This document shows positions 5,672 through 54,139 of a DNA stretch of 64,000 nt, in pieces (the first letter of the stretch is position 1; each line of letters opens with the position of its first letter). The notes beneath the pieces are model-generated. The model had not been told where the DNA came from and ran no database searches. It worked only from the letters and a program-made list of their open reading frames with translations. This stretch comes from Brachyhypopomus gauderio (lineage: Eukaryota; Chordata; Actinopteri; Gymnotiformes; Hypopomidae), in the NCBI RefSeq assembly GCF_052324685.1, contig NW_027506911.1, positions 62,001-126,000 on the forward strand, in the 5' to 3' direction. The translations under genes were made by a program, and so were the position numbers.

Positions 5672-5737
5672 TGCCGAAACCCGGGATCGAACCAGGGACC
5701 TTTAGATCTTCAGTCTAACGCTCTCCCAACTCCGCCA
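5672..5737 (-). pseudogene. tRNA-Phe 3' part, interrupted by transposon copy 1
   Basis: This fragment keeps tRNA nt 8-73, including anticodon and B box, but nt 8-13 read TGGCGG (plus strand ccgcca) instead of TAGCTC. The 5' seven nt lie at 8783-8789 beyond the 3,039 bp insertion. It cannot give a normal tRNA. Confidence 0.93.
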
Positions 5738-5760
5738 AAGCTGGGGAACAATCGTCTGTA
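5738..5760. repeat. Transposon copy 1 left terminal inverted repeat
   Basis: The inner eight bases CGTCTGTA match the right end in inverted orientation at the same distance (16-23 bases) from the terminus. Confidence 0.7.
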
Positions 5761-6119
5761 TGAGGGGGGGAAGAAGGGGAAGAAAAAGGAAAAAAAAATT
5801 GAGAAAAGATCGGGAGGTCGCAGGTTCGAATCCAGCCTGGATATAAATATTTGTAACTGAGAATCTTGCCGTGGATATTTTGTGTGATAATATTCTAAGA
5901 AATATATTGCAAAATTTTATTTTATGGCTGTCAGCAGTGCCTACAATTACGGGGCACCCGTGTCACAATTTATATATTGTAATATATATGTGCATTTCAT
6001 ACACATACATATGAGTTGTTTCATCATATTAGGCTTATTGCTTGATTTAATAAATTCACACTCTGTATTTGTATTCACACTTTATATATTTATTCACACT
6101 TTATATACTTTATACACTT

Positions 6120-6158
<39 letters not shown>

Positions 6159-6414
6159 AACATGAATAAAATTAACAAAATGATATTCTAATACAATTAA
6201 CAAAATTATACTACAATTTACATAAAAATAAAATATTAAATCTACACTAATACATATATACACATATTAATGCCACAGCAGCTGAACTATAAAAAATTCC
6301 AATAAACTACAGCAAAACATTTACAACATTTTAAACCATTAAAGATAATAATAATTATATTTTAGTATTATAAAAATACAATAGTAATGTATGAAAATAA
6401 AGTATACACATTAA
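5761..6414. other. Left subterminal non-coding region of transposon copy 1
   Basis: It contains a purine-rich tract (about 5763-5810), a tRNA-like B box (5823-5833) and AT-rich sequence with a TA microsatellite (6124-6155). It corresponds to the 3' flank of the transposase gene. No coding exon is seen. Confidence 0.7.
5823..5833 (+). promoter_or_regulatory. B-box-like motif GGTTCGAATCC in transposon left end
   Basis: The motif equals the Pol III B box consensus and sits in a T-arm-like hairpin (GCAGG, loop TTCGAAT, CCAGC; one A/A mismatch). No A box is seen upstream inside the element, so independent Pol III transcription is not supported. Confidence 0.5.
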
Positions 6415-7766
6415 TCACAGTTTTCTCATCTTTTCCAGCCACTGTTCCTTGGTATTAGTCTCTGTCATAGGACAGAAGATCTTCCCCTTGTACTGGCTAT
6501 GGCCAGTTGCTGTTTTGCGTGACTGTCCACACTTCCTACAGGTATTATATGGGACTGTCTGCTTGTAATGTCGCTCAGTGGGGGTAGCAGGCTGAGGGAC
6601 AGAACTGGGCAACAACACCTGAGGCATGACAGACATAGCTGGTCCTGCGGGTAACATCATCAGTACAGGTGAAGGTCATCTGTATCATTCTCAAAGAGGC
6701 CTGTGAACCAGACTCCATGGAAGCAACAGGAGGCTGAATGGAAGTGTCCTGATGTCGTTGAGTAGGGGCTAATGGTGGTGTGGCACTGGGCAGAATTTTT
6801 CTAAACTTAGTTTTTGCCTGACCTGCTGTGTTTGGTGGCACCTCTACCAGCTGAAGGATGGCCTGCTCCAACACTGTCCCATTGTTTAAAACAAGCTGCC
6901 TAATGTTCCTGTAGTCCTCCAACATCAGTGCCCACCTTGACAGACTTACTTGACCTGAGTTGTGGGGCTTCTGTGGATGTTGGCCAGTCTTACAAAGATG
7001 GTTTTAATGAGCCGACAGCAGTCAGGCCACTGAGCAGGGGAGCCACTTGATCCCAGAACACACCTTTTTGTGCTCTCAACACCAGGGGTGAAAACTGCCT
7101 TCTTTTTGGGGGATCTAAAGCGGGCAGTCAGCAGCCTATCCTGATGCCGAGCTGCATACACCAGTCTGTTTTTATCAAACTGGTTTAGGTTTTGCCACAA
7201 ACTAACAATCGTGGTGGTCTGCTGGTTTGTCAGGGTGAGGCGTGTTTGAGTGCGAAGCTCAACCAGATACTCTGATAATTCATCCACCCTTTCCATTCCA
7301 GGAATGTTATGGACATCCACAGCCTAGAAATAAAAAAAATAATAATATGAAATGTTATAATGTCTGTATAAATGTGCATTTTCTATATACAATAAAGTTT
7401 TAATTACAATAAAGCATGAGAAAATAAAACATTTGTGTGTAGCATTCTTATTTGTGTGCTGTTTATTGGAGAATTTAACAATGAGCATGTTTAACAATGA
7501 AAGTAAGGTACTATCACTTACCATTTGTTGAGCTGAAGGCTCTGATGGAGACTGAATAGGCACTGGTGGAGGCTGGGCCGAGGTCACTGGTGGAGGCTGG
7601 GCCGAGGTCACTGGTGGAGGCTGGGCCGAGGTCACTGGTGGAGGCTGGGCCGAGGTCACTGGTGGAGGCTGGGCCGAGGTCACTGGTGAAGGCTGGACCG
7701 AGGTCACTGGTGGAGGCTGGGCCGAGGTCACTGGTGAAGGCTGGACCGAGTCATGGAACGTGCCTG
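6415..7766 (-). pseudogene. Transposase gene remnant, transposon copy 1
   Basis: The remnant holds the last coding exon (6415-7323) and most of the proline-repeat exon (from 7522), homologous to 36112-37206 and 37405-37743 in copy 2. The last exon has lost an internal block (the part between the segments ending LQLVEV and starting MPPNTAG) and is broken into three reading frames (pieces near 6415-6660, 6575-6925 and 6946-7320). The zinc ribbon and all catalytic exons are deleted. The zinc-binding C-terminus (CRKCGQSRKTATGHSQ) is still readable. It cannot make transposase. Confidence 0.88.
7560..7750. repeat. 24 bp coding minisatellite, copy 1 (about 8 units)
   Basis: Tandem 24 bp units encode QPPPVTSA on minus. 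The long plus-strand reading frame across it is only its complement. Confidence 0.85.
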
Positions 7767-8462
7767 AAAATGTAGCAGAAATACTTTTTAAATATAGGGA
7801 GCAAATAAATATAGTTACTAAAACTCATCATAAACAGTCAACCCTAGTAATACATTATTCTGTATTTGCAGATTGCAGGTTTAATTAAAGTTACCTTATG
7901 AAATCCACAAACACATATACTTTATAATTAAAACAAACATAAATTAACAAATAAGTCAATCCATGGCAACTAAGAATGCATGTGAGCAGTTGGTACCAAC
8001 TCACTAGTTACTAATGTGTTTTTAACCCTTTTAATAGTCCAAGGATTCGTATTACTCACTTAACCATATACTTTATAATGTTCGTTTCTACGTAGATACT
8101 TAGTAATAACAAAACAATAACATGTTAAGCAGGGGCACGTATTTTCTAAGGCGTTTAAAAACCGATAAATAACGCGTTTATATACCGGTAAATTACCTCA
8201 CGATTTCTGCAATTGTCCGTTGAAAATCGAAAAAGAGGATAGATGGCTAACACAGAAAAACATTAATTAAATTATTCTTCAAGATTAGAATTAATTTAGG
8301 CTAGTTAGAAGTTATATGATAGTTTGCTAACGAGCTACGTTCATGACAGTCACCGCAGGAGACTACTACAGAGTATTTTTTAGCTGACTACCTTTCTGAT
8401 GATCGCAAAATATATCTACAGTATTAATTTATTGGTTCCTTACACAAACAAATAAGGCATAC
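7767..8462. other. Non-coding remainder of copy 1: intron and leader-intron sequence
   Basis: Sequence from 7767 matches the intron between coding exons 2 and 3 of the full element. It then jumps near 7905-7920 from the start of coding exon 2 into the leader intron. No reading frame of interest. Confidence 0.7.
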
Positions 8463-8525
8463 CTGTGTCTTGTTGAGAAATCCCAAATCCGAGACGGTGT
8501 TTCTTCTACGCGGTGTAAGTTTATA
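8463..8525 (-). promoter_or_regulatory. Leader exon and TATA-like promoter of transposon copy 1
   Basis: A minus-strand CAG|GTATGC donor adjoins 8463 and a TATAAAC motif lies at 8519-8525, as in the full copies. This part survived although the coding exons did not. Confidence 0.5.
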
Positions 8526-8564
8526 AACTATGACGTGACCGGGGCAAGTTCACCTTCGTCGTGT

Positions 8565-8745
8565 CATTGGCCGAGGAAAAATGGAATGATGGTCAGGCAT
8601 TGGCCAGAGGAAAAATGGAATGGTGGCCAGGCATTGGCCGAGGAAAAATGGAATGGTGGCCAGGGATAGGCCGAGGAAAACGAAGAAAATGGAATGGTTC
8701 GCGCGCCATTGGCCGAGCAAAAATGGAATGGGGCTCAGGCATTGG
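8565..8745. repeat. 33 bp CCAAT-box minisatellite, copy 1 (5 CCAAT motifs)
   Basis: Degenerate 33 bp units begin at 8565, 8598, 8632, 8665, 8707 and 8740. Five retain ATTGG (CCAAT on minus); the unit at 8665 has lost it. The short proteins read across it in several frames are artefacts of the repeat. Confidence 0.8.
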
Positions 8746-8753
8746 ATGTTTTT

Positions 8754-8776
8754 TACAGACGGGTGGCTTGCAGGTA
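8754..8776. repeat. Transposon copy 1 right terminal inverted repeat
   Basis: Reverse complement begins TACCTGC and carries CGTCTGTA at 16-23, pairing with 5738-5760. Confidence 0.7.
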
Positions 8777-8789
8777 CCGCCATTTCGGC
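8777..8789 (-). pseudogene. tRNA-Phe 5' fragment right of transposon copy 1
   Basis: It holds target duplication ccgcca plus TTTCGGC, the complement of tRNA-Phe nt 1-7. Confidence 0.9.
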
Positions 8790-9064
8790 AAGCTGCAGAT
8801 AAACCACGTCGAGATGCAAACGAAACTTTATCAACGACTGTTACCTTTCCTTAGGTTCTTGCAACATGCTTTCACAGCGTAACGGTTTCGGCACAGTGAA
8901 ATTCACGGACAGGTACGGCAAGACCTAATTTGGCAATGTTTATCATGATGCCAACATGAGAAAACCTTGTGGGTCAATGCTGGATTCGGTATTATTTCCT
9001 AGTCGGGCTGAGCTGATCCGTAAGCTTTCCTTAAAACTCCAATCAAAACTATAAACTCTTGAGA

Positions 9065-9137
9065 GGGGGATTAGCTCAAGTGGTAGAGCGCTCGCTTTGC
9101 ATGCGAGAGGTAGTGGGGTCGATGCCCACATTCTCCA
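9065..9137 (+). tRNA. tRNA-Ala-TGC: tRNA-Ala(TGC), class G54
   Basis: First intact tRNA gene right of transposon copy 1. Confidence 0.96.
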
Positions 9138-9605
9138 AAGCTCTCTTACTGACTCCTTGCTTGCTTACGATAAGCATGAAGCAGCCAGCTCTAGTCTTAA
9201 GGGAATAATTTCATGACCTTCAAAGGTCTCTTAGAACATGGTCACTTTGGATTCCTCCAGCAAACAGTTGACATCTTTGCCACATCTCTTTTTACTTTTG
9301 GACAAAGGCTGTCCATAAGCCGAAGGAAGCAGAGGAAAGTCCAATTCAGTCAAAACTTAAGCATGTCGTGAAGTGGTACACCTATGCTTTTGGACAACGC
9401 GTACATGCAAGTTGACACCTACACATTTCCTTCTCCAAATGCTTTATCAGCAGATGAATTGAACATCTAGAGTCTCGAGTTCTGACAATCCCACTGTGAA
9501 ATCTCACAACAAAACATCAAACAGTTTATGTCTGTTTATAATTTTTCAACAGAATGCACAGGTCATTCAAAAGCTGAGGCTTTCCACCTAGCTAGGTCGA
9601 ATTCA

Positions 9606-9678
9606 TGCCGAAACCCGGGATCGAACCAGGGACCTTTAGATCTTCAGTCTAACGCTCTCCCAACTGAGCTATTTCGGC
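9606..9678 (-). tRNA. tRNA-Phe-GAA: tRNA-Phe(GAA), class P
   Basis: Majority sequence. Confidence 0.96.
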
Positions 9679-9953
9679 AAGCTGCAGATAAACCACGTCG
9701 AGATGCAAACGAAACTTTATCAACGACTGTTACCTTTCCTTAGGTTCTTGCAACATGCTTTCACAGCGTAACGGTTTCGGCACAGTGAAATTCACGGACA
9801 GGTACGGCAAGACCTAATTTGGCAATGTTTATCATGATGCCAACATGAGAAAACCTTGTGGGTCAATGCTGGATTCGGTATTATTTCCTAGTCGGGCTGA
9901 GCTGATCCGTAAGCTTTCCTTAAAACTCCAATCAAAACTATAAACTCTTGAGA

Positions 9954-10026
9954 GGGGGATTAGCTCAAGTGGTAGAGCGCTCGCTTTGCATGCGAGAGGT
10001 AGTGGGGTCGATGCCCACATTCTCCA
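9954..10026 (+). tRNA. tRNA-Ala-TGC: tRNA-Ala(TGC), class G54
   Basis: Majority sequence. Confidence 0.96.
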
Positions 10027-10484
10027 AAGCTCTCTTACTGACTCCTTGCTTGCTTACGATAAGCATGAAGCAGCCAGCTCTAGTCTTAAGGGAATAATTT
10101 CATGACCTTCAAAGGTCTCTTAGAACATGGTCACTTTGGATTCCTCCAGCAAACAGTTGACATCTTTGCCACATCTCTTTTTACTTTTGGACAAAGGCTG
10201 TCCATAAGCCGAAGGAAGCAGAGGAAAGTCCAATTCAGTCAAAACTTAAGCATGTCGTGAAGTGGTACACCTATGCTTTTGGACAACGCGTACATGCAAG
10301 TTGACACCTACACATTTCCTTCTCCAAATGCTTTATCAGCAGATGAATTGAACATCTAGAGTCTCGAGTTCTGACAATCCCACTGTGAAATCTCACAACA
10401 AAACATCAAACAGTTTATAATTTTTCAACAGAATGCACAGGTAATTCAAAAGCTGAGGCTTTCCGCCTAGCTAGGTCGAGTTCA

Positions 10485-10557
10485 TGCCGAAACCCGGGAT
10501 CGAACCAGGGACCTTTAGATCTTCAGTCTAACGCTCTCCCAACTGAGCTATTTCGGC
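10485..10557 (-). tRNA. tRNA-Phe-GAA: tRNA-Phe(GAA), class P
   Basis: The gene is normal, but its 3' spacer carries the 10 bp deletion that makes this unit 879 bp. Confidence 0.96.
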
Positions 10558-10832
10558 AAGCTGCAGATAAACCACGTCGAGATGCAAACGAAACTTTATC
10601 AACGACTGTTACCTTTCCTTAGGTTCTTGCAACATGCTTTCACAGCGTAACGGTTTCGGCACAGTGAAATTCACGGACAGGTACAGCAAGACCTAATTTG
10701 GCAATGTTTATCATGATGCCAACATGAGAAAACCTTGTGGGTCAATGCTGGATTCGGTATTATTTCCTAGTCGGGCTGAGCTGATCCGTAAGCTTTCCTT
10801 AAAACTCCAATCAAAAGAATAAACTCTTGAGA

Positions 10833-10905
10833 GGGGGATTAGCTCAAGTGGTAGAGCGCTCGCTTTGCATGCGAGAGGTAGTGGGATAGATGCCCACATT
10901 CTCCA
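10833..10905 (+). tRNA. tRNA-Ala-TGC: tRNA-Ala(TGC), class A56, probable pseudogene
   Basis: C56A in the T loop. Confidence 0.85.
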
Positions 10906-13224: not shown

Positions 13225-13499
13225 AAGCTTCAGATAAACCACGTCGAGATGCAAACGAAACTTTATCAACGACTGTTACCTTTCCTTAGGTTCTTGCAAC
13301 ATGCTTTCACAGCGTAACGGTTTCGGCACAGTGAAATTCACGGACAGGTACAGCAAGACCTAATTTGGCAATGTTTATCATGATGCCAACATGAGAAAAC
13401 CTTGTGGGTCAATGCTGGATTCGGTATTATTTCCTAGTCGGGCTGAGCTGATCCGTAAGCTTTCCTTAAAACTCCAATCAAAAGAATAAACTCTTGAGA

Positions 13500-13572
13500 G
13501 GGGGATTAGCTCAAGTGGTAGAGCGCTCGCTTTGCATGCGAGAGGTAGTGGGATAGATGCACACATTCTCCA
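13500..13572 (+). tRNA. tRNA-Ala-TGC: tRNA-Ala(TGC), class A56 plus T-stem mismatch
   Basis: It combines C56A with the CACAC T-stem change (G52/A62 mismatch). It is the most damaged Ala copy. Confidence 0.82.
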
Positions 13573-35376: not shown

Positions 35377-35442
35377 TGCCGAAACCCGGGATCGAACCAG
35401 GGACCTTTAGATCTTCAGTCTAACGCTCTCCCAACTGAGCCA
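35377..35442 (-). pseudogene. tRNA-Phe 3' part, interrupted by transposon copy 2
   Basis: Same break as at 5672-5737. The terminal hexamer here is gagcca, a hybrid between gagcta (intact units) and ccgcca (copy 1). Confidence 0.93.
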
Positions 35443-35465
35443 AAGCTGGGGAACAATCGTCTGTA
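35443..35465. repeat. Transposon copy 2 left terminal inverted repeat
   Basis: Same sequence as 5738-5760; pairs with 42970-42992. Confidence 0.7.
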
Positions 35466-36111
35466 TGAGGGGGGGAAGAAGGGGAAGAAAAAGGAAGAAA
35501 AAGGAAAAAAAAGTTGAGAAAAGATCGGGAGGTCGCAGGTTCGAATCCAGCCTGGATATAAATATTTGTAACTGAGAATCTTGCCGTGGATATTTTGTGT
35601 AATAATATTCTAAGAAATATATTGCAAAATTTTATTTTATGGCTGTCAGCAGTGCCTACAATTACGGGGCACCCGTGTCACAATTTATATATTGTAATAT
35701 ATATGTGCATTTCATACACATACATATGAGTTGTTTCATCATATTAGGCTTATTGCTTGATTTAATAAATTGACACTCTGTATTTGTATTCACACTTTAT
35801 ATATTTATTCACACTTTATATACTTTATACACTTTATGTATATATATATATAATAAACATGAATAAAATTAACAAAATGATATTCTAATACAATTAACAA
35901 AATTATACTACAATTTACATAAAAATAAAATATTAAATCTACACTAATACATATATACACATATTAATGCCACAGCAGCTGAACTATAAAAAATTCCAAT
36001 AAACTACAGCAAAACATTTACAACATTTTAAACCATTAAAGATAATAATAATTATATTTTTGTAATATAAAAATACAATAGTAATGTATGAAAATAAAGT
36101 ATACACATTAA
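35466..36111. other. Left subterminal non-coding region of transposon copy 2
   Basis: It contains a purine-rich tract (35467-35520), a B-box-like motif, AT-rich 3' flank of the transposase gene and a short TA repeat (about 35839-35852). No coding exon is seen. Confidence 0.7.
35538..35548 (+). promoter_or_regulatory. B-box-like motif in transposon copy 2 left end
   Basis: GGTTCGAATCC lies 96 bp inside the left end, identical in all three copies. Confidence 0.5.
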
Positions 36112-39100
36112 TCACAGTTTTCTCATCTTTTCCAGCCACTGTTCCTTGGTAAGAGTCTCTGTCATAGGACAGAAGATCTTCCCCTTGTACTGGCTATGGC
36201 CAGTTGCTGTTTTGCGTGACTGTCCACACTTCCTACAGGTATTATATGGGACTGTCCGCTTGTAATGTCGCTCAGTGGGGGTAGCAGGCTGAGGGACAGA
36301 ACTGGGCAACAACACCTGAGGCATGACAGACACAGCTGGTCCTTCGGGTAACATCATCAGTACAGGTGAAGGTCTTGGCTGTATCATCCTCAAAGAGGCC
36401 TCCTGTGAACCAGACTCCATGGAAGCAACGGGAGGCTGAATGGAAGTGTCCTGATGTCGTTGACTAGGGGCTAATGGTGGTGTGGCACTGGGCAGAATTT
36501 TTCTAAACTTAGTTTTAGCCTGACCTGCTGTGTTTGGCGGCATGTGGTAAATATGAACCTGATGAGGGTACTGTGGAGGCTCATCAGGTTGTACATTTGC
36601 TGGCAGTAGAGGTTGAGCTGCCACTGGCCGTGCATCAGGGAGGCGCACCCCTTGAAGTAGCACAGAGACCTCCTGAGATTTGAGGCGCTCTTTGTACCAC
36701 TGCATAAGAGTTTTCTGGTTCACCTCTACCAGCTGAAGGGTGGTCTGCTCCATCACTGTCCCATTGTTCAAAACAAGCTGCCTGATTTTCCTGTAGTCCT
36801 CCAACATCAGTGCCCACCTTGACACACTTACTTTGCCCAGAGTTTTGGGGCTTCTGTGGATGTTGGCCAGTCTTATAAAGATGGATTCAATCAGCCGACA
36901 GCAGTCAGGCCACTGAGCAGGGGAGCCACTTGATCCCAGAACACACCTTTTTGTGCTCTCAACACCAGGGGTGAAAACTGCCTTCTTTTTGGGGGATCGA
37001 AAGCGGCCAGTCAGCAGCCTATCCTGATGCCGAGCTGCATACACCAGTCTGTTTTTATCAAACTGGTTTAGGTTTTGCCACAAACTAACAATCAAGGTGG
37101 TCTGCTGGTTTGTCAGGGTCAGGCTTGTTTGAGTGCGAAGCTCAACCAGATACTCTGATAATTCATCCACCCTTTCCATTCCAGGAATGTTGTGGACATC
37201 CACAGCCTAGAAATAAAAATAATAATAATATGAAATGTTATAATGTCTGTAGAAATGTGCATTTTCTATTTACAATAAAGGTTTAATTACAATAAAGCAT
37301 GAGAAAATAAAGCATTTGTGTGTCGCGTTCTTATTTGTGTGCTGTTTATTAGAGAATTTAACAATGAAGATGTTTAACAATGAAAGTAAGGTACTATCAC
37401 TTACCATTTGTTGAGCTGAAGGCTCTGATGGAGACTGACTAGGCACTGGTGGAGGCTGGGCCGAGGGCACTGGTGGAGGCTGGGCCGAGGGCACTGGTGG
37501 AGGCTGGGCCGAGGTCACTGGTGGAGGCTGGGCCGAGGTCACTGGTGGAGGCTGGGCCGAGGGCACTGGTGGAGGCTGGGCCGAGGGCACTGGTGGAGGC
37601 TGGGCCGAGGTCACTGGTGGAGGCTGGGCCGAGGTCACTGGTGGAGGCTGGGCCGAGGGCACTGGTGGAGGCTGGGCCGAGGTCACTGGTGGAGACTGGA
37701 AGGTCACTGGTGGAGGCTGGGCCGAGGTCACTGGTGGAGGCTGCTGAAGGAGTATAGGTGTAGTTTGGATTAGTGGTTTTAACAGATAAATTTTACTATA
37801 AAAAGACAAAGTAAGACTCTATCATTTACCATTTGTTGAACTGAAGGTAATGACGATGAAGGCTGGACCAAGGGCATTGGTGAAGGGTGGAGAGGTGGGT
37901 GAGGGAACACAAATTCTAATGTCTCATCAGCAACCACCAGGTCTGCCACCATTGCTTCATCCTGCAGACTGGATTCGTTGAACCCCTCATCATCTTCATC
38001 TTGGTCATGCACTTCTAAGTCCTCCAGCAGCTGGGTGGTTCTGTCAGAATTTGGGTGCATATCCTCCAGTGGCTCATTATTCTGCCTTAGCAGGTACTGC
38101 ACACCAATGAGCTCCCCTGAAAATGCATTAAATAAAAAAAGAAAAATAAACATTTTTGTGACGTATAAAGTATTCTAAAATATTAAATGCCGTATCACAA
38201 TATGCTTACCAGTGTATTTTGCAGGTGGTGTAAATGCCGGCATCAATTTCCTTTTAAAAACCTTCTGGTAGTTGTCGTTGACAAAGTGAACCAACTCCCC
38301 AGTGTAACTGCGCAGGGTTGTAGGTTCCTTTGCAAGAGCACGGTCTTTGTTCCAGCGATTCAGCCCTTCCAGTAGATATATCTGAAAGTTCAGACTATTG
38401 GCACTGTTTCCTGAAAGAATGTGTACCACAATTAATACAAGAACCATCTGTTACAAACAAAGCAAAGCAAGCTAAATTCATTGATAGTTATGTGATTTTT
38501 AATATAATCAAACATGATATATTGCAGAAAATATTTACTAAAGTTAACAGTTATCACATACCTGGAATGAAGCGATTCAAATGGCAGTGAAACGATTCCA
38601 GGGATGTGGAGCCTCTTGCACACCGGTATGTTTTTAAAACTACTCCTCCCTTGGTGATGTCTCCGGTCTCCGTGTACAATGCCACACCAGGAGGGTCTTG
38701 AATGCATGCCACATGCCGCTTCTGTACACGCCAGATGTGCTGCATTCGCACAGTGTCAAGAAGAGGAACACCAAGGGCATCGTTCCCCTTGCCACTCATT
38801 AGCTCTGTGAGTAGCTGATTAAGCAGGTGGATGGTTGTCTCTTGTCCTCGTGTTCTCCTCCTGCAGTGCAGTGCCAGCTCATCTTTTGTGATGTGTCGAT
38901 CAACATCTTTGTCGGTCAACACTGGCCAGTCTTGCTTCCTCAGCTGCTCCCTTTTGGCCCTCCTCAGCAGACTAACGTCACCTGCATCCCACTCAAATAT
39001 ACAGGCCGACAAACGTGACATGAACGTTGGATAAAGCTGATGGGCATCGGTGGTGCACCCTGTTGCCAGTCGTCGCATAAAATGCCAGATGTCTAGACGC

Positions 39101-41928
39101 ACAATCACATCTGGCCACCCACTGAATCTGGTCTTCAGCTTTGTCTCTCCCACTTCCTTACAACAGCCACAGTCCACATAAAGGGCAACAGGGGGAGCAA
39201 CACCAGCCTTGCAGTACCGGTCTACTAGACCTGCTATCATGAGGTCCAACCCAGCACCTTCATTTGTGGTAAGTACACTCATCAACACCTGGCCCTTTTC
39301 ATTCCCCACAGAAGTGAGCCATTGTGCAGTGCCCTTGGCAGGTCCAGTCAACTTCTTGGTGATCTGGCAATAAGAGAGGAACAATGTAAGAAACAAACCC
39401 AATGGCTTACCCATCATACCGAGCTTATCATAACAAAGGATCCAAACGAGGATGTCTCCTTCAGGACAAACAGACTATATGACTTATTTAGCATATACAA
39501 AAACAAACCATCATGGGCCATAATGGTTCTTCTTGCCAGACAAAGAGAGGTGACTTAAAGGGGATTTTGAAAGTAAGTGATCAATGGCCTTCTATCAACA
39601 AAACAAAATAAGTGGCCTAGACATTCATTCCTTCATTAAAGTACATTCAAACTGAGTGTTAACTGCAATAACCATAATCACACACAACAGATCAGATCCT
39701 TCCTGAGAGAATAGCTGGGTGGTGGTGTTTTAAAATTTATATATAGTGTGTATATAGTTGAGAAATAACCTGAGAAAAAAGTTTGCCAAATGATAACTAA
39801 TATAATAAATAACATCTAACCTTTTTGGTAGAATCCATTTTTAAAATGGCTCCATAGGTTGAAGTGATTCCAGCCTTGATTTCCTCCAGTCTGTTGAGGA
39901 TGTCTTGGCTGTACACAGTGAGGAGCCACTTGTAGTTGGGCACTGTGGCAGGTTCTGGGGGCTCCTGAAACTGTGGTGGAAGCACACTTGCATTTTCCAT
40001 GAAGGCAGCACACTCCGATACATATCGTGCGGCCCTCTGGAGCCACTGCTCGCTGTGGTTCTCCTTCAGCTGGCCGATGATCCGGACAGGGCCGTTTCCC
40101 AGTCCTCGCTCACGCAACAGGCGGATCACCCGAATGTCACAGGCATATCTTGGGGGAAAAAAATCTTTATTATTCTGTTATTTAGGGAAATAAGTGTCAG
40201 ATTTGCAAAAAGATATGTCCATGATGGCAAAGTAATTTAGTGTTTCATTCACCTGCGAGTAAGGATCACTCTAAACTCAGAGCGATGTGCTAGGTCCAGT
40301 TGGTGAAGGATTGTCTGGCTCCACGATACGTAGCTGGATCTACATCTGCTGCAGATCAGTGTCTCCGTCACCAGGTTGTAGTACCTATCGATGTCGAGGA
40401 CCTGCCGAACCCTCCTGTGCAGACCACCTCCACTCAGCCGATGTTTACAGTCAGGATTCGTACAGTAAAGCCGCACCTTCCACAACCTGTAAGGCATCCA
40501 CAACAACAGAGACTGCGAGAAGAAACGATCAGGAGTGGGAGACTGGTGATACAAAAGAGCTGGAGGTGGTGCATGATACCATAGTTGCAGGTTGTCGCGT
40601 AGCTCCAGCTTTCCCTTCGGCCCAAGTCTGAAGAGAGCTTCAGACACCCATTTCTGGTCATGCCGTGGCAATGTCTGCGGCCACAATAGTGGGAGCTCTG
40701 CTGTATTTTCTGGCTGATGGATTGGCTATGATGAAAAAATAGCACAAGTATACACAGATGTTATGTGTAATCATGAATGACTTGTGAATGAATCATGAAT
40801 GTACATGTGATTTATTAATGACACATTACCGTACCATGCTCATCACAACAGAAGACTCTGCAGAATGTTGCCCTTGTTCTGCAGGTTGTGGTTTTGGTGG
40901 TGGAGCAAGAAAACATGGGGACTGTAGGAGAGGCCTGTAAGGATGGAAGGATGTTGAAGGCTGAGGATCAGGAGACTGGCAAGACGTTGAACCTGCTCCT
41001 AGGATCTCCTGTGGCTGTGGAATTAATAGTTTGTTATTCAGTTAGAATAGAACAAATAGAAGAAAAAACATTAATATATAGTATTTTTTTTACCTGTACA
41101 TGCTTCCTTGTGACATTCAGGTTTGGTTTTGCTGTAGCCACATGGGTTCCACCATACCTTGATCGTTCAAACTAGTACAAAAAGAAGATCACAATATTTG
41201 TTGGAAACCATGAAGAATATTCAGCACAGCAACATCACATAATGTTCATATCTTTATAGTACAATGTATGTTACCATGGATAAAGTCAATTTAGGCCTCT
41301 TTGCAGGACTGGTGGAGGGAGAAGTGCTCAGGCTGGCAGTACTTGTTGATGGTTGAGGAGCCAGTGGATTCTTGGAACGTTCCTGAAAATGTAGCAGAAA
41401 TACATTTATATATAGGGAGAAAATATATATAGTTACTAAAACTCATCATAAACAGTCAACCTTAGTAATACATTATTCTGTATTTGCAGATTGCAGGTTT
41501 AATTAATTTAAGTTACCTTATGAAAGCTACAAACACACTTGGGCAATCCTCCCACAAGGGTTGACTGTCCCTTCAGATGCTGGGGGCATTTTTCAATCTG
41601 CAAAAAAAAATCCACATTCAGGCAAGATGTCTTCTCTTTTGTAATTGTAATTTTCTGCAATTCTCACCTGTCCTTCACAACTCCAATTAGAACTATTTAA
41701 AGAGTCAAGCAACAATAAATAAATATGGAATAATAAGGCTTAAGTTATTTTAAAATGAGAGAAATCATATTATTTTACCTTATTATAGAGTTCGTGCCAC
41801 TTTTTCTGTCTTGGAGCAGGCCTGTTGCCCTCGCTCGATGGCCAAACCCCTGTGTTGGCAAATGCTTGCAGCCGGGCAAGCCAGTCTGTGTCAGCCATGG
41901 CCTTGTGAGATTTTTTTGATGCTGACAT
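36112..41928 (-). CDS. Dada-like transposase, 12 coding exons, about 1,371 aa (copy 2)
   Basis: Predicted to cut and paste the element into tRNA genes in the nucleus. Coding exons in order: 41779-41928, 41517-41597, 41275-41382, 41094-41171, 40835-41008, 40253-40725, 39821-40148, 38562-39363, 38210-38410, 37830-38116, 37405-37743, 36112-37206. Every junction is GT-AG and the frame stays open throughout. The start MSASKKSHKAMADTDW lies 3 nt after a TTTCAG acceptor. Residues 212-354 are DUF6729-like with C285/C290/C322/C325 as a zinc ribbon. Candidate catalytic residues are D460 (in KMDSTKK), D528 (in LYVDCG), the D(2)H motif D555/H558 (in RLDIWHF) and E720 (in SLESFH), the D-D-C/D(2)H-E signature shared by MuDR, hAT, P, Kolobok and Dada. 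An acidic segment and a QPPPVTSA-repeat linker precede a C-terminal domain with C1331/C1334/H1344/C1353. Exon structure is my inference from splice consensus; no transcript was seen. Confidence 0.85.
37444..37743. repeat. 24 bp in-frame coding minisatellite, copy 2 (about 12 units)
   Basis: The units encode QPPPVTSA or QPPPVPSA on minus, inside coding exon 11. The unit length is a multiple of three, so copy-number change leaves the frame intact. Confidence 0.9.
39364..39820 (-). other. Intron 7 of transposase copy 2 (457 bp)
   Basis: Bounded by the donor after KMDSTKK and the acceptor before ITKKLTG. It separates the first catalytic D from the second. No other feature seen inside. Confidence 0.75.
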
Positions 41929-41931
41929 GAT

Positions 41932-42575
41932 CTGAAACAAGACATTGTAAATAACGAAAGTGTATGATATACTTTATAATTAAAACAAACATAAATTAAC
42001 AAATAAGTAAATCCATGGCAACTAAGAATGAATGTGAGCAGTTGGTACCAACTCACTAGTTACTAATGTGTTTTTAACCTTTTTAATACTACAAGGATTC
42101 GTATTACTCACTTAACCATATACTTTATAATGTTCGTTTCTACGTAGATACTTAGTAATAACAAAATAATAACGTGTTAGGCAGGGGCACGTATTTTCTA
42201 AGACGTTTAAAAACAGTTAAATAAAGCGTTTATATACCGTTAAATTACCTCACAATTTCGGCGATTGTCCGTTGAAAATCGAAAAACAGGATAGATGGCT
42301 AACACAGAGAAACATTAATTAGATTATTCGTCATGATTAGAATTACATAAATTATTCCTCCAATTTAGGCTAGTTAGAAGTTATCCGATAGCTTGCTAAC
42401 GAACTACGTCCATGAGCGTCACCACAGGAGATAATGTATATACAGTATTTCTTAGCTGACTACCTTTCCAATGATCGCAAAATATATCTACAGCATTTAT
42501 TTATTGGTTCCTTATACAAACAGGCATAAAACAACCCTGCGTATAAATAAATATGCTAGCAAAAATAAGGCATAC
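41932..42575 (-). other. Leader intron of transposase copy 2 (644 bp)
   Basis: It runs from donor GTATGC next to 42576 to a TTTCAG acceptor just before the start exon. The sequence is AT-rich and non-coding. Confidence 0.65.
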
Positions 42576-42645
42576 CTGTGTCTTGTTGAGAAATCCCAAA
42601 TCCGAGACGGTGTTTCTTTCTTCTACGCGGTGTAAAGTTTATATA
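42576..42645 (-). promoter_or_regulatory. Transposase promoter and leader exon, copy 2
   Basis: The minus-strand TATA box TATATAAAC is at 42637-42645. The leader exon presumably starts about 25-30 nt downstream (near 42612) and ends at 42576 with donor CAG|GTATGC. Confidence 0.6.
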
Positions 42646-42682
42646 CTTTGAAGTGACCGGGTCAAGATCGCCTTCGTCGTGT

Positions 42683-42961
42683 CATTGGCCGAGGAAAAAT
42701 GGAATGGTGGGCAGGCATTGGCCGAGGAAAAATGGAATGGTGGGCAGACATTGGCCGAGGAAAAATGGAATGGTGGGCAGACATTGGCCGAGGAAAAATG
42801 GAATGGTGGCCAGGCATTGGCCGAGGAAAAATGGAATGGTGGGCAGGCATTGGCCGAGGAAAAATGGAATGGTGGCCAGGCATTGGCCGAGAAAAACGAA
42901 GAAAATGGAATGGTTCGCGCGCCATTGGCCGAGGAAAAATGGAATGGGGCTCAGGCATTGG
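42683..42961. repeat. 33 bp CCAAT-box minisatellite, copy 2 (9 CCAAT motifs)
   Basis: Units start at 42683, 42716, 42749, 42782, 42815, 42848, 42881, 42923 and 42956. Each has GGCCAATG or similar on minus, in the orientation of the transposase gene and upstream of its TATA box. Each full unit also carries CATTCCA on minus. A regulatory role is inferred. Confidence 0.8.
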
Positions 42962-42969
42962 ATGTTTTT

Positions 42970-42992
42970 TACAGACGGGTGGCTTGCAGGTA
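42970..42992. repeat. Transposon copy 2 right terminal inverted repeat
   Basis: Identical to the right end of copies 1 and 3. Confidence 0.7.
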
Positions 42993-43005
42993 GAGCTATT
43001 TCGGC
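42993..43005 (-). pseudogene. tRNA-Phe 5' fragment right of transposon copy 2
   Basis: It holds gagcta plus TTTCGGC, the complement of tRNA nt 1-13; here the flank is the normal target sequence. Confidence 0.9.
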
Positions 43006-46488: not shown

Positions 46489-46554
46489 TGCCGAAACCCG
46501 GGATCGAACCAGGGACCTTTAGATCTTCAGTCTAACGCTCTCCCAACTGAGCTA
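46489..46554 (-). pseudogene. tRNA-Phe 3' part, interrupted by transposon copy 3
   Basis: Retains nt 8-73 with the normal hexamer gagcta next to the element. Confidence 0.93.
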
Positions 46555-46577
46555 AAGCTGGGGAACAATCGTCTGTA
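46555..46577. repeat. Transposon copy 3 left terminal inverted repeat
   Basis: Pairs imperfectly with 54104-54126. Confidence 0.7.
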
Positions 46578-47227
46578 TGAGGGGGGGAAGAAGGGGAAGA
46601 AAAAGGAAGAAAAAGGAAAAAAAAGTTGAGAAAAGATCGGGAGGTCGCAGGTTCGAATCCAGCCTGGATATAAATATTTGTAACTGAGAATCTTGCCGTG
46701 GATATTTTGTGTAATAATATTCTAAGAAATATATTGCAAAATTTTATTTTATGGCTGTCAGCAGTGCCTACAATTACGGGGCACCCGTGTCACAATTTAT
46801 ATATTGTAATATATATGTGCATTTCATACACATACATATGAGTTGTTTCATCATATTAGGCTTATTGCTTGATTTAATAAATTGACACTCTGTATTTGTA
46901 TTCACACTTTATATATTTATTCACACTTTATATACTTTATACACTTTATGTATATATATATATATATAATAAACATGAATAAAATTAACAAAATGATATT
47001 CTAATACAATTAACAAAATTATACTACAATTTACATAAAAATAAAATATTAAATCTACACTAATACATATATACACATATTAATGCCACAGCAGCTGAAC
47101 TAAAAAAAATTCCAATAAACTACAGCAAAACATTTACAACATTTTAAACCATTAAAGATAATAATAATTATATTTTTGTAATATAAAAATACAATAGTAA
47201 TGTATGAAAATAAAGTATACACATTAA
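46578..47227. other. Left subterminal non-coding region of transposon copy 3
   Basis: Purine tract, B-box-like motif and AT-rich gene 3' flank as in copy 2; the TA repeat (about 46951-46968) is 4 bp longer. Confidence 0.7.
46650..46660 (+). promoter_or_regulatory. B-box-like motif in transposon copy 3 left end
   Basis: GGTTCGAATCC, same position relative to the end as in the other copies. Confidence 0.5.
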
Positions 47228-50200
47228 TCACAGTTTTCTCATCTTTTCCAGCCACTGTTCCTTGGTAAGAGTCTCTGTCATAGGACAGAAGATCTTCCCC
47301 TTGTACTGGCTATGGCCAGTTGCTGTTTTGCGTGACTGTCCACACTTCCTACAGGTATTATATGGGACTGTCCGCTTGTAATGTCGCTCAGTGGGGGTAG
47401 CAGGCTGAGGGACAGAACTGGGCAACAACACCTGAGGCATGACAGACACAGCTGGTCCTTCGGGTAACATCATCAGTACAGGTGAAGGTCTTGGCTGTAT
47501 CATCCTCAAAGAGGCCTCCTGTGAACCAGACTCCATGGAAGCAATGGGAGGCTGAATGGAAGTGTCCTGATGTCGTTGACTAGGGGCTAATGGTGGTGTG
47601 GCACTGGGCAGAATTTTTCTAAACTTAGTTTTAGCCTGACCTGCTGTGTTTGGCGGCATGTGGTAAATATGAACCTGATGAGGGTACTGTGGAGGCTCAT
47701 CAGGTTGTACATTTGCTGGCAGTAGAGGTTGAGCTGCCACTGGCCGTGCATCAGGGAGGCGCACCCCTTGAAGTAGCACAGAGACCTCCTGAGATTTGAG
47801 GCGCTCTTTGTACCACTGCATAAGAGTTTTCTGGTTCACCTCTACCAGCTGAAGGGTGGTCTGCTCCATCACTGTCCCATTGTTCAAAACAAGCTGCCTG
47901 ATTTTCCTGTAGTCCTCCAACATCAGTGCCCACCTTGACACACTTACTTTGCCCAGAGTTTTGGGGCTTCTGTGGATGTTGGCCAGTCTTACAAAGATGG
48001 TTTTAATGAGCCGACAGCAGTCAGGCCACTGAGCAGGGGAGCCACTTGATCCCAGAACACACCTTTTTGTGCTCTCAACACCAGGGGTGAAAACTGCCTT
48101 CTTTTTGGGGGATCGAAAGCGGCCAGTCAGCAGCCTATCCTGATGCCGAGCTGCATACACCAGTCTGTTTTTATCAAACTGGTTTAGGTTTTGCCACAAA
48201 CTAACAATCGTGGTGGTCTGCTGGTTTGTCAGGGTGAGGCGTGTTTGAGTGCGAAGCTCAACCAGATACTCTGCTAATTCATCCACCCTTTCCATTCCAG
48301 GAATGTTATGGACATCCACAGCCTAGAAAAAAAAAATAATAATAATATGAAATGTTATAATGTCTGTAGAAATGTGCATTTTCTATTTACAATAAAGGTT
48401 TAATTACAATAAAGCATGAGAAAATAAAGCATTTGTGTGTCGCGTTCTTATTTGTGTGCTGTTTATTAGAGAATTTAACAATGAAGATGTTTAACAATGA
48501 AAGTAAGGTACTATCACTTACAATTTGTTGAGCTGAAGGCTCTGATGGAGACTGACTAGGCACTGGTGGAGGCTGGGCCGAGGTCACTGGTGGAGGCTGG
48601 GCCGAGGTCACTGGTGGAGGCTGGGCCGAGGTCACTGGTGGAGGCTGGGCCGAGGTCACTGGTGGAGGCTGGGCCGAGGGCACTGGTGGAGGCTGGGCCG
48701 AGGTCACTGGTGGAGGCTGGGCCGAGGTCACTGGTGGAGGCTGGGCCGAGGGCACTGGTGGAGGCTGGGCCGAGGGCACTGGTGGAGGCTGGGCCGAGGG
48801 CACTGGTGGAGGCTGGGCCGAGGGCACTGGTGGAGGCTGGGCCGAGGGCACTGGTGGAGGCTGCTGAAGGAGTATAGGTGTAGTTTGGATTAGTGGTTTT
48901 AACAGATAAATTTTACTATAAAAAGACAAAGTAAGACTCTATCATTTACCATTTGTTGAACTGAAGGTAATGACGATGAAGGCTGGACCAAGGGCATTGG
49001 TGAAGGGTGGAGAGGTGGGTGAGGGAACACAAATTCTAATGTCTCATCAGCAACCACCAGGTCTGCCACCATTGCTTCATCCTGCAGACTGGATTCGTTG
49101 AACCCCTCATCATCTTCATCTTGGTCATGCACTTCTAAGTCCTCCAGCAGCTGGGTGGTTCTGTCAGAATTTGGGTGCATATCCTCCAGTGGCTCATTAT
49201 TCTGCCTTAGCAGGTACTGCACACCAATGAGCTCCCCTGAAAATGCATTAAATAAAAAAAGAAAAATAAACATTTTTGTGACGTATAAAGTATTCTAAAA
49301 TATTAAATGCCGTATCACAATATGCTTACCAGTGTATTTTGCAGGTGGTGTAAATGCCGGCATCAATTTCCTTTTAAAAACCTTCTGGTAGTTGTCGTTG
49401 ACAAAGTGAACCAACTCCCCAGTGTAACTGCGCAGGGTTGTAGGTTCCTTTGCAAGAGCAGAAGCAGCACGGTCTTGGTTCCAGCGATTCAGCCCTTCCA
49501 GTAGATATATCTGAAAGTTCAGACTATTGGCACTGTTTCCTGAAAGAATGTGTACCACAATTAATACAAGAACCATCTGTTACAAACAAAGCAAAGCAAG
49601 CTAAATTCATTGATAGTTATGTGATTTTTAATATAATCAAACATGATATATTGCAGAAAATATTTACTAAAGTTAACAGTTATCACATACCTGGAATGAA
49701 GCGATTCAAATGGCAGTGAAACGATTCCAGGGATGTGGAGCCTCTTGCACACCGGTATGTTTTTAAAACTACTCCTCCCTTGGTGATGTCTCCGGTCTCC
49801 GTGTACAATGCCACACCAGGAGGGTCTTGAATGCATGCCACATGCCGCTTCTGTACACGCCAGATGTGCTGCATTCGCACAGTGTCAAGAAGAGGAACAC
49901 CAAGGGCATCGTTCCCCTTGCCACTCATTAGCTCTGTGAGTAGCTGATCGAGCAGGTGGATGGTTGTCTCTTGTCCACGTGTTCTCCTCCTGCAGTGCAG
50001 TGCCAGCTCATCTTTTGTGATGTGTCGATCAACATCTTTGTCGGTCAACACTGGCCAGTCTTGCTTCCTCAGCTGCTCCCTTTTGGCCCTCCTCAGCAGA
50101 CTAACGTCACCTGCATCCCACTCAAATATACAGGCAGACAAGCGTGACATGAAAGTCGGATAAAGCTGATGGGCATCGGTGGTGCACCCTGTTGCCAGTC

Positions 50201-53063
50201 GTCGCATAAAATGCCAGATGTCTAGACGCACAATCACATCTGGCCACCCACTGAATCTGGTCTTCAGCTTTGTCTCTCCCACTTCCTTACAACAGCCACA
50301 GTCCACATAAAGGGCAACAGGGGGAGCAACACCAGCCTTGCAGTACCGGTCTACTAGACCTGCTATCATGAGGTCCAACCCAGCACCTTCATTTGTTGTA
50401 AGTACACTCATCAACACCTGGCCCTTTTCATTCCCCACAGATGTGAGCCATTGTGCAGTGCCCTTGGCAGGTCCAGTCAACTTCTTGGTGATCTGGCAAT
50501 AAGAGAGGAACAATGTAAGAAACAAACCCAATGGCTTACCCATCATACCTAGCTTATCATAACAAAGGATCCAAACGAGGATGTCTCCTTCAGGACAAAC
50601 AGACTATATGACTTATTTAGCATATACAAAAACAAACCATCATGGGCCATAATGGTTCTTCTTGCCAGACAAAGAGAGGTGACTTAAAGGGGATTTTGAA
50701 AGTAAGTGATCAATGGCCTTCTATCAACAAAACAAAATAAGTGGCCTAGACATTCATTCCTTCATTAAAGTACATTCAAACTGAGTGTTAACTGCAATAA
50801 CCATAATCACACACAACAGATCAGATCCTTCCTGAGAGAATAGCTGGGTGGTGGTGTTTTAAAATTTATATATAGTGTGTATATAGTTGAGAAATAACCT
50901 GAGAAAAAAGTTTGCCAAATGATAACTAATATAATAAATAACATCTAACCTTTTTGGTAGAATCCATTTTTAAAATGGCTCCATAGGTTGAAGTGATTCC
51001 AGCCTTGATTTCCTCCAGTCTGTTGAGGATGTCTTGGCTGTACACAGTGAGGAGCCACTTGTAGTTGGGCACTGTGGCAGGTTCTGGGGGCTCCTGAAAC
51101 TGTGGTGGAAGCACACTTGCATTTTCCATGAAGACAGCACACTCCGATACATATCGTGCGGCCCTCTGGAGCCACTGCTCGCTGTGGTTCTCCTTCAGCT
51201 GGCCGATGATCCGGACAGGGCCGTTTCCCAGTCCTCGCTCACGCAGCAGGCGGATCACCCGAATGTCACAGGCATATCTTGGGGGGAAAAAAATCTTTAT
51301 TATTCTGTTATTTAGGGAAATAAGTGTCAGATTTGCAAAAAGATATGTCCATGATGGCAAAGTAATTTAGTGTTTCATTCACCTGCGAGTAAGGATCACT
51401 CTAAACTCAGAGCGATGTGCTAGGTCCAGTTGGTGAAGGATTGTCTGGCTCCACGATACGTAGCTGGATCTACATCTGCTGCAGATCAGTGTCTCCGTCA
51501 CCAGGTTGTAGTACCTATCGATGTCGAGGACCTGCCGAACCCTCCTGTGCAGACCACCTCCACTCAGCCGATGTTTACAGTCAGGATTCGTACAGTAAAG
51601 CCGCACCTTCCACAACCTGTAAGGCATCCACAACAACAGAGACTGCGAGAAGAAACGATCAGGAGTGGGAGACTGGTGATACAAAAGAGCTGGAGGTGGT
51701 GCATGATACCATAGTTGCAGGTTGTCGCGTAGCTCCAGCTTTCCCTTCGGCCCAAGTCTGAAGAGAGCTTCAGACACCCATTTCTGGTCCTGCCGTGGCA
51801 ATGTCTGCGGCCACAATAGTGGGAGCTCTGCTGTATTTTCTGGCTGATGGATTGGCTATGATGAAAAAATAGCACAAGTATACACAGATGTTATGTGTAA
51901 TCATTAATGACTTGTGAATGAATCATGAATGTACTTGTGATTTATTAATGACACATTACCGTACCATGCTCATCACAACAGAAGACTCTGCAGAATGTTG
52001 CCCTTGTTCTGCAGGTTGTGGTTTTGGTGGTGGTGGTGGAGCAAGAAAACATGGGGACTGTAGGAGAGGCCTGTGAGGATGGAAGGATGTTGAAGGCTGA
52101 GGATCAGGAGACTGGCAAGACGTTGAACCTGCTCCTAGGATCTCCTGTGGCTGTGGAATTAATAGTTTGTTATTCAGTTAGAATAGAACAAATAGAAGAA
52201 AAAACATTAATATATAGTATTTTTTTACCTGTACATGCTTCCTTGTGACATTCAGGTTTGGTTTTGCTGTAGCCACATGGGTTCCACCATACCTTGATCG
52301 TTCAAACTAGTACAAAAAGAAGATCACAATATTTGTTGGAAACCATGAAGAATATTCAGCACAGCAACATCACATAATGTTCATATCTTTATAGTACAAT
52401 GTATGTTACCATGGATAAAGTCAATTTAGGCCTCTTTGCAGGACTGGTGGAGGGAGAAGTGCTCAGGCTGGCAGTACTTGTTGATGGTTGAGGAGCCAGT
52501 GGATTCTTGGAACGTTCCTGAAAATGTAGCAGAAATACATTTATATATAGGGAGAAAATATATATAGTTACTAAAACTCATCATAAACAGTCAACCTTAG
52601 TAATACATTATTCTGTATTTGCAGATTGCAGGTTTAATTAATTTAAGTTACCTTATGAAAGCTACAAACACACTTGGGCAATCCTCCCACAAGGGTTGAC
52701 TGTCCCTTCAGATGCTGGGGGCATTTTTCAATCTGCAAAAAAAAATCCACATTCAGGCAAGATGTCTTCTCTTTTGTAATTGTAATTTTCTGCAATTCTC
52801 ACCTGTCCTTCACAACTCCAATTAGAACTATTTAAAGAGTCAAGGAACAATAAATAAATATGGAATAATAAGGCTTAAGTTATTTTAAAATGAGAGAAAT
52901 CATATTATTTTACCTTATTATAGAGTTCGTGCCACTTTTTCTGTCTTGGAGCAGGCCTGTTGCCCTCGCTCGATGGCCAAACCCCTGTGTTGGCAAATGC
53001 TTGCAGCCGGGCAAGCCAGTCTGTGTCAGCCATGGCCTTGTGAGATTTTTTTGATGCCGACAT
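47228..53063 (-). CDS. Dada-like transposase, 12 coding exons, about 1,377 aa (copy 3)
   Basis: Same gene as 36112-41928. Coding exons in order: 52914-53063, 52652-52732, 52410-52517, 52229-52306, 51965-52144, 51383-51855, 50950-51277, 49691-50492, 49330-49539, 48950-49236, 48522-48863, 47228-48322. All junctions are GT-AG and the frame is open. Compared with copy 2 it has 6 bp more in exon 5, 9 bp more in exon 9 (DRAASALAKE against DRALAKE) and 3 bp more in the proline-repeat exon. M to I at the end of exon 11 keeps the donor. The zinc ribbon, D-D-D(2)H-E residues and C-terminal CCHC cluster are all present, so this copy too could be active. No expression evidence is available here. Confidence 0.85.
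48560..48863. repeat. 24 bp in-frame coding minisatellite, copy 3 (about 12-13 units)
   Basis: Same repeat as in copy 2, but the order of the VTSA and VPSA variants differs, so the repeat has been rearranged since the copies separated. Confidence 0.9.
50493..50949 (-). other. Intron 7 of transposase copy 3 (457 bp)
   Basis: Counterpart of 39364-39820; nothing else recognised. Confidence 0.75.
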
Positions 53064-53066
53064 GAT

Positions 53067-53709
53067 CTGAAACAAGACATTGTAAATAACGAAAGTGTAT
53101 GATATACTTTATAATTAAAACAAACATAAATTAACAAATAAGTAAATCCATGGCAACTAAGAATGAATGTGAGCAGTTGGTACCAACTCACTAGTTACTA
53201 ATGTGTTTTTAACCTTTTTAATACTACAAGGATTCGTATTACTCACTTAACCATATACTTTATAATGTTCGTTTCTACGTAGATACTTAGTAATAACAAA
53301 ATAATAACGTGTTAGGCAGGGGCACGTATTTTCTAAGACGTTTAAAAACAGTTAAATAAAGCGTTTATATACCGTTAAATTACCTCACAATTTCGGCGAT
53401 TGTCCGTTGAAAATCGAAAAACAGGATAGATGGCTAACACAGAGAAACATTAATTAGATTATTCGTCATGATTAGAATTACATAAATTATTCCTCCAATT
53501 TAGGCTAGTTAGAAGTTTCCGATAGCTTGCTAACGAACTACGTCCATGAGCGTCACCACAGGAGATAATGTATATACAGTATTTCTTAGCTGACTACCTT
53601 TCCGATGATCGCAAAATATATCTACAGCATTTATTTATTGGTTCCTTATACAAACAGGCATAAAACAACCCTGAGTATAAATAAATATGCTAGCAAAAAT
53701 AAGGCATAC
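53067..53709 (-). other. Leader intron of transposase copy 3
   Basis: AT-rich, non-coding; differs from copy 2 by small indels not divisible by three. Confidence 0.65.
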
Positions 53710-53779
53710 CTGTGTCTTGTTGAGAAATCCCAAATCCGAGACGGTGTTTCTTTCTTCTACGCGGTGTAAAGTTTATATA
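53710..53779 (-). promoter_or_regulatory. Transposase promoter and leader exon, copy 3
   Basis: TATATAAAC is at 53771-53779 on minus; the leader exon ends at 53710 with donor CAG|GTATGC. Confidence 0.6.
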
Positions 53780-53816
53780 CTTTGAAGTGACCGGGGCAAG
53801 ATCGCCTTCGTCGTGT

Positions 53817-54095
53817 CATTGGCCGAGGAAAAATGGAATGGTGGGCAGACATTGGCCGAGGAAAAATGGAATGGTGGGCAGACATTGGCCGAGGAAAAAT
53901 GGAATGGTGGCCAGGCATTGGCCGAGGAAAAATGGAATGGTGGGCAGGCATTGGCCGATGAAAAATGGAATGGTGGGCAGGCATTGGCCGAGGAAAAATG
54001 GAATGGTGGCCAGGCATTGGCCGAGAAAAACGAAGAAAATGGAATGGTTCGCGCGCCATTGGCCGAGGAAAAATGGAATGGGGCTCAGGCATTGG
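53817..54095. repeat. 33 bp CCAAT-box minisatellite, copy 3 (9 CCAAT motifs)
   Basis: Units start at 53817 and every 33 bp to 54015, then 54057 and 54090. The variant order differs from copy 2. Confidence 0.8.
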
Positions 54096-54103
54096 ATGTT
54101 TTT

Positions 54104-54126
54104 TACAGACGGGTGGCTTGCAGGTA
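54104..54126. repeat. Transposon copy 3 right terminal inverted repeat
   Basis: Same as the right end of the other copies. Confidence 0.7.
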
Positions 54127-54139
54127 CCGCCATTTCGGC
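54127..54139 (-). pseudogene. tRNA-Phe 5' fragment right of transposon copy 3
   Basis: It holds ccgcca plus TTTCGGC; the hexamer differs from the left flank gagcta. Confidence 0.9.

Follow-up and report, generated by a model that had tools for sequence, protein, structure and literature searches.

Why do three copies of one DNA transposon lie at the same nucleotide of three tRNA-Phe genes, and where do the six bases on either side of them come from? The question is raised by a stretch of 64,000 nucleotides of the Brachyhypopomus gauderio genome (GCF_052324685.1, contig NW_027506911.1, positions 62,001 to 126,000), hereafter called the window. In this stretch three elements, c1, c2 and c3, each split a tRNA-Phe gene at the hexamer for tRNA nucleotides 8-13. 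We consider it highly probable that they belong to a DDE transposon family of the Dada-tY lineage, which would recognise the start of the A box (nucleotides 8-13) together with its surroundings, use the numerous tRNA-Phe genes and carry a hexamer into its target.

In the window, 889-bp units follow one another in a tandem array, and each unit holds one tRNA-Ala gene on the forward and one tRNA-Phe gene on the reverse strand (51 positions for either gene). All three elements have the orientation of the tRNA-Phe gene that they split, and the tRNA-Ala to tRNA-Ala distances over them (3934, 8445 and 8467 bp) equal 889 bp plus the element plus 6 bp. The lengths, the common insertion point and the spacing reported by an earlier sequence-only reading of this DNA were thus recovered on re-measurement. 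The remaining 47 of the 50 units are 879-890 bp long, and a search of the window for further element ends of this family found none beyond c1-c3. Therefore, no copy lies in the tRNA-Ala genes or spacer of the window, as that reading had also stated. The chance that three insertions share one point of an 889-bp unit is about (1/889)^2. We did not accept the untouched tRNA-Ala genes as evidence of specificity on their own, because the hexamer TAGCTC is present in both genes and three insertions would all fall into tRNA-Phe with a chance of 1/8.

TAGCTC occupies the site in all 48 uninterrupted tRNA-Phe genes of the window, and a 6-bp slot is found on both sides of the elements, in the size range of the 6-7 bp target site duplications described for Dada. 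The sequence-only reading had assumed a clean duplication of these 6 bp. This part did not hold, as four of the six flanking hexamers (three times TGGCGG, once TGGCTC; Table 1) differ from TAGCTC, compared to none of the 48 empty genes (Fisher p = 4.7e-5, with the flanks taken as independent).

Table 1 Features of the three insertions. Positions refer to the window and hexamers are given on the gene strand.
Feature	Position	Strand	Remarks
c1, non-autonomous internally deleted Dada element	5738..8776	-	3039 bp
c1 3' flanking hexamer	5732..5737	-	TGGCGG; TAGCTC in empty genes
c1 5' flanking hexamer	8777..8782	-	TGGCGG
c2, full-length Dada element	35443..42992	-	7550 bp
c2 3' flanking hexamer	35437..35442	-	TGGCTC, readable as TGGCGG/TAGCTC mosaic
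c2 5' flanking hexamer	42993..42998	-	TAGCTC, the empty-gene state
c2 transposase gene	36112..41928	-	12 predicted exons (own splice-site reading), 1373 amino acids, no internal stop
c2 exon 8	38562..39363	-	second catalytic D (530), DxxH (557/560), E722
c2 subterminal inverted repeat	42970..42977	-	CGTCTGTA; bases 16-23 from 5' end
c2 partner repeat	35458-35465		TACAGACG; bases 16-23 from 3' end
c3, full-length Dada element	46555..54126	-	7572 bp
c3 3' flanking hexamer	46549..46554	-	TAGCTC
c3 5' flanking hexamer	54127..54132	-	TGGCGG

The whole assembly (796.5 Mb) was searched with a 21-base probe for the 3' end (up to three mismatches) and a 23-base probe for the 5' end. The 3' probe found 24 places, of which 15 (at most one mismatch) belong to the family of c1-c3 and four adjoin tRNA-Leu letters, while no tRNA gene lies closer than about 1.5 kb to the remaining five. 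The 5' probe found 15 exact places and one place with three mismatches and no tRNA gene. Accordingly, the genome holds 15-16 copies: 14 complete ones plus one 5' and one 3' fragment, both at contig starts and possibly parts of one broken copy. The contigs C67 and C351 start inside an element copy (L046 and L040, respectively) in opposite senses; they may be neighbours, with the assembly broken within one copy. Counted by 5' ends, ten copies lie on C67, three on C351 and one each on C21 and C69.

All 15 visible 5' flanks carry tRNA-Phe letters (the flank ends with GCCGAAA in 13 cases and with GCCGCAA in one, and another lacks five bases), and 13 of them lie in tRNA-Ala/Phe arrays. Gene letters on the 3' side were readable at five of the 15 3' ends (c1-c3 from the window, L040 and L044) and belong to tRNA-Phe in each case; eight more array copies run into array spacer beyond the 3' mask. 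For the copies on C21 and C69 the assignment to tRNA-Phe comes from 7-8 letters of the 5' flank, since their 3' sides are masked. With this qualification, the strict targeting proposed from the window alone withstood a genome-wide look for copies at many non-tRNA sites. On C67, 56 tRNA-Phe genes are visible over about 357 units. After subtraction of the eight internal elements, 52 of the 55 intervals between them are multiples of 889 bp within 14 bp. Apart from the three other intervals (residuals of -70, -317 and -361 bp), the interval lengths revealed no other large insertion in this array, although one of an exact multiple of 889 bp would escape.

Genome-wide, the 5' hexamer is TGGCGG in 13 and TAGCTC in two of 15 cases, and the 15 3' hexamers comprise ten TGGCGG, two TGGCTC, two TAGCTC and one masked (those of c2 and c3 were read from the window). 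Among the 13 pairs readable on both sides, ten are TGGCGG/TGGCGG, one is TGGCGG/TAGCTC and two are TAGCTC/TGGCTC; TAGCTC/TAGCTC, the pair expected of a plain duplication, occurs in none of the 13. Replacement of the flanking hexamer has been reported before within the Dada superfamily (PMC8869645, PMC3706591). The hexamer states do not track the ancestry of the elements. Although c2 and L044 are both TAGCTC/TGGCTC, no two-state site of the long copies is exclusive to them, and c2 shares five such sites with its nearest kin L039, which is TGGCGG/TGGCGG. The hexamer state therefore changes at or after insertion.

Assignment to Dada, as defined by Kojima and Jurka 2013 (PMC3706591) and already proposed in the sequence-only reading, is supported by the catalytic residues D, D and E together with a DxxH motif, both zinc fingers, subterminal repeats and insertion into multicopy small RNA genes, here tRNA-Phe at all 15 visible 5' flanks. 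The protein has a match to the domain PF20499, and its first catalytic D (462) lies at the end of exon 7 of c2. In an alignment of 42 rows D462 is kept in 41, D530 in 41, D557 in 42, H560 in 41 and E722 in 40, and a CCCC zinc finger (C287/C292/C324/C327) is conserved in all 42. A CCHC zinc finger (C1333/C1336/H1346/C1355), read in c2 alone, has a spacing of 3/10/9; the published Dada positions yield the same spacing (3, 10, 9). The element ends have a subterminal but no terminal inverted repeat. On the exon map of c2, c3 has an intact reading frame of 1379 amino acids with no internal stop, and the c1 element lacks exons 1 and 4-10 entirely and parts of the remaining exons.

Within Dada, the family most likely represents a new member of a lineage that is itself known. 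Kojima 2022 (PMC8869645) defines Dada-tY, which inserts at tRNA nucleotides 8-13; its target is TAGCTC followed by AG, and TAGCTC is replaced by TGGCGG, frequently on both sides and in some cases on one. The window family has the same target, including the following AG, and the same replacement. Thus, the suggestion that a tRNA-Phe A-box family may be undescribed was abandoned. In goldfish, Dada-tY_CaAu was found in seven tRNA-Tyr and two tRNA-Phe genes (PMC8869645), whereas all 15 visible 5' flanks here are tRNA-Phe. We do not regard this as a changed specificity: at least seven tRNA-Tyr gene starts were found in the host (a lower bound) compared to hundreds of tRNA-Phe units, and target abundance may suffice to explain the flanks. 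A further difference from goldfish Dada-tY is that complete 3-kb non-autonomous copies outnumber full-length ones. Among 120 listed of 363 matches, the transposase is closest to proteins of Astyanax (86% identity over residues 230-760), Megalobrama (82%) and Carassius (81%). In a tree with 40 of the 120 listed relatives, unlabelled for target, it falls into a clade (support 100/99) with proteins of Astyanax, Carassius, Megalobrama, Conger and Takifugu, and apart from the tRNA-Leu family of its own host. The table in PMC8869645 lists tY in Cyprinidae only, and for Gymnotiformes that paper describes Dada transcripts, but no tY transcripts. The host groups with Electrophorus by RAG1 (99/97; 24 chosen rows), so Dada-tY type insertion would extend past Cyprinidae.

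How does the foreign hexamer arrive? It might have been there already: if the elements had picked variant tRNA-Phe genes with TGGCGG, the ten TGGCGG/TGGCGG pairs would resemble an ordinary target duplication. We consider this very improbable and rejected it, given TAGCTC in 48 of 48 empty window genes, the unlike pairs of c2, c3 and L044, and the genome matches of the TGGCGG gene start GCAGCTTGCCGAAATGGCGG (up to one mismatch), all ten of which adjoin an element; this count is a minimum, since the corresponding search with TAGCTC listed only ten of the 48 empty genes of the window. Instead, we favour carriage of the hexamer by strand exchange. The transposase would make cuts staggered by six bases in both element and target, and TGGCGG carried at the element ends would usually replace the target's TAGCTC. 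The carried overhang would anneal or be ligated, with repair of the six mismatched base pairs, or an equivalent strand exchange would take place; the target's own six bases would not be filled in on both sides. A TGGCTC side, as observed in two copies, could stem from incomplete repair or from subsequent conversion that came from the side of the gene. Kojima 2022 (PMC8869645) likewise speculates that an ancestral flank travels along with the element. Dada-tA shows the same phenomenon, its flanking TAGCAT being changed to GCGCAA "by an unknown mechanism" (Kojima and Jurka 2013), but its target is tRNA-Ala, which is untouched in the window. Tn916-type elements carry six donor-derived bases, the coupling sequences, to a new site by means of a tyrosine recombinase, whereas the family described here has the Dada DDE motif. 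It may be speculated that Dada-tY makes no true target site duplication and performs a conservative exchange over a 6-bp overlap with its own coupling-sequence-like hexamer in spite of its DDE enzyme, although we regard this as rather doubtful.

Several points weigh against hexamer carriage by a Dada-tY type enzyme. Under a simple flap model most pairs should be one-sided, while ten of the 13 are two-sided. Either repair is biased towards the carried strand, or the element has TGGCGG as a permanent part and owes its exceptions to conversion within the array. Conversion from empty neighbouring genes could have produced the TAGCTC and TGGCTC sides, an empty TGGCGG gene could be hidden where tRNA letters are masked, as many are in the searched genome, and the subterminal repeat, which in Dada is also expected in the target, resembles the tRNA-Phe sequence at equal distance only weakly (five of eight letters, a match reached at 2.6% of unit positions). 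Moreover, the placement in Dada-tY draws on the target, the hexamer replacement and a tree of rows with unlabelled targets. The version in which TGGCGG is fixed at both element ends and replaces six target bases each time, with later array gene conversion behind the TAGCTC and TGGCTC sides, deserves weight, even if we judge it the less probable one. It is in line with the fact that all copies with such a side (c2, c3, L040 and L044) lie in tandem arrays, that the two copies outside arrays (C21 and C69) are TGGCGG/TGGCGG, and that the target-like letters of TGGCTC are on the gene side. However, in four places (c2 5', L044 5', c3 3' and L040 3') a conversion tract would have to end precisely at the boundary of the element, and the non-array copies are only two. 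A one-sided empty-gene hexamer is also seen in the sister family Dada-tL on C1, though in an array too.

Kojima 2022 (PMC8869645) describes Dada-tL as the sister lineage of Dada-tY. The host contains four copies, whose 3' end ATTGTTCCCCAGCTT (three mismatches to the 21-base probe) adjoins GAACGCAGCGCCTTAG of tRNA-Leu, the published Dada-tL target (PMC8869645). Their protein is 62-66% identical to the window protein over residues 209-804 and 36-68% in other pieces. Dada-tL uses a site in the anticodon region of tRNA-Leu and forms a different clade, whereas the visible flanks of the window family are tRNA-Phe. A second tandem array on C1 (L061-L063) consists of 691-bp units with tRNA-Leu genes (TAG and AAG anticodons) and harbours two of the copies, which are probably duplicates of each other. 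At these, the 5' hexamer is AAATCC, as in the empty genes of the array. The 3' hexamer is GAACGC, where those empty genes have AAATCC or TAATCC. GAACGC is also found beside the C16 copies, where the further letters match another tRNA-Leu type. Both C1 flanks come from the same array gene type, and therefore the foreign part is confined to a short stretch that includes the hexamer. For zebrafish Dada-tL, one-ended transposition that fuses two different genes was proposed (PMC3706591); the C1 insertion appears to fit hexamer carriage better. It counts as a single independent event, and the family's 5' end was set from C1 alone, as the C16 5' sides are masked.

A separate issue is whether the copies transposed one by one or multiplied as array segments were duplicated or as units converted each other in a homing-like manner. 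That the latter holds for most array copies seems improbable to us, although the elements of c1 and L034 are 100% identical and the pair L042/L043, two elements of identical sequence separated by 6,556 bp whose flanks also agree wherever they can be read, looks like an array duplication. The c1, c2 and c3 units match their nearest empty units with 0, 1 and 1 differences over about 748 flank positions, and c1 and c3 sit in near-identical units while their elements differ by about 4%. Together with the unit lengths, these comparisons support separate insertions of c1, c2 and c3, and an origin by array duplication of one insertion was rejected. Furthermore, the C21 copy is a short form 99.97% identical to c1 with unrelated 5' neighbours, and both copies are TGGCGG/TGGCGG. 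The short form thus moved recently between contigs, presumably in trans. There are eight complete copies of this 3-kb form (99.38-100% identical to each other) and six full-length copies (99.05-99.54%), with about 96% identity between the two groups. Five deletion points are common to all eight short copies, and L035 has an extra one. The frame is open on the c2 exon map in five of the six long copies; that of L039 is interrupted by a stop at codon 577.

DNA transposons with so strict a target site are uncommon, and they attract interest as safe-harbour integration tools. The array is a natural test bed: a single contig holds about 357 near-identical units, coding as well as recently moved non-autonomous forms are present, and a six-base mark separates donor from target letters. 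The hexamer replacement of Dada, so far unexplained, can thereby be put to a direct test. New to the description of these elements are the lack of TAGCTC/TAGCTC among 13 pairs, the TGGCGG gene start seen only beside elements, hexamer states that do not track ancestry, recent movement of the 3-kb form between contigs and the one-sided foreign hexamer at a Dada-tL insertion.

Some searches of the element were less informative. Pfam on the catalytic and C-terminal exons gave nothing informative, NCBIfam gave one match under its cut-off, and the seven Rfam matches on c2 were all under the families' own cut-offs and within the coding repeat. Comparison of the Astyanax relative with solved structures reached a best E of 0.0003; this and most other matches lie in the repeat-rich part and none in the catalytic part. 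Near the c2 3' end, on the strand opposite the transposase, GGTTCGAATCC (window 35520-35560) is what we take to be a B-box-like motif by its consensus; ARAGORN and Rfam had no match there. Single catalytic positions are substituted in five separate rows of the alignment (Fundulus, Priapulus, Ptychodera and two Triplophysa proteins), which may be inactive or mis-modelled. A likeness to the domesticated dDada was dropped, as the substitutions are spread over five different rows.

Exon 11 of the transposase contains a 24-bp minisatellite (about 12.6 copies, window 37444-37743) that encodes QPPPVTSA/QPPPVPSA repeats and has an unlike pattern in c2 and c3; the Astyanax relative P0001 has another proline-rich repeat in the later part of the protein. 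Just inside the c2 5' end lies a 33-bp tandem repeat (8.2 copies, window 42683-42961), which is shortened in the eight non-autonomous copies and possibly provides putative transposase binding sites. In the array itself, the tRNA-Ala gene at window 13495-13567 was not called by ARAGORN, yet its sequence was found within 8 edits, and this copy is probably degenerate. Identical unit types recur between window positions 684 and 34837, in many cases at a distance of six units (u13/u19 and u15/u21/u27, with u3/u20 as a further recurrence), a sign that the array was amplified in segments.

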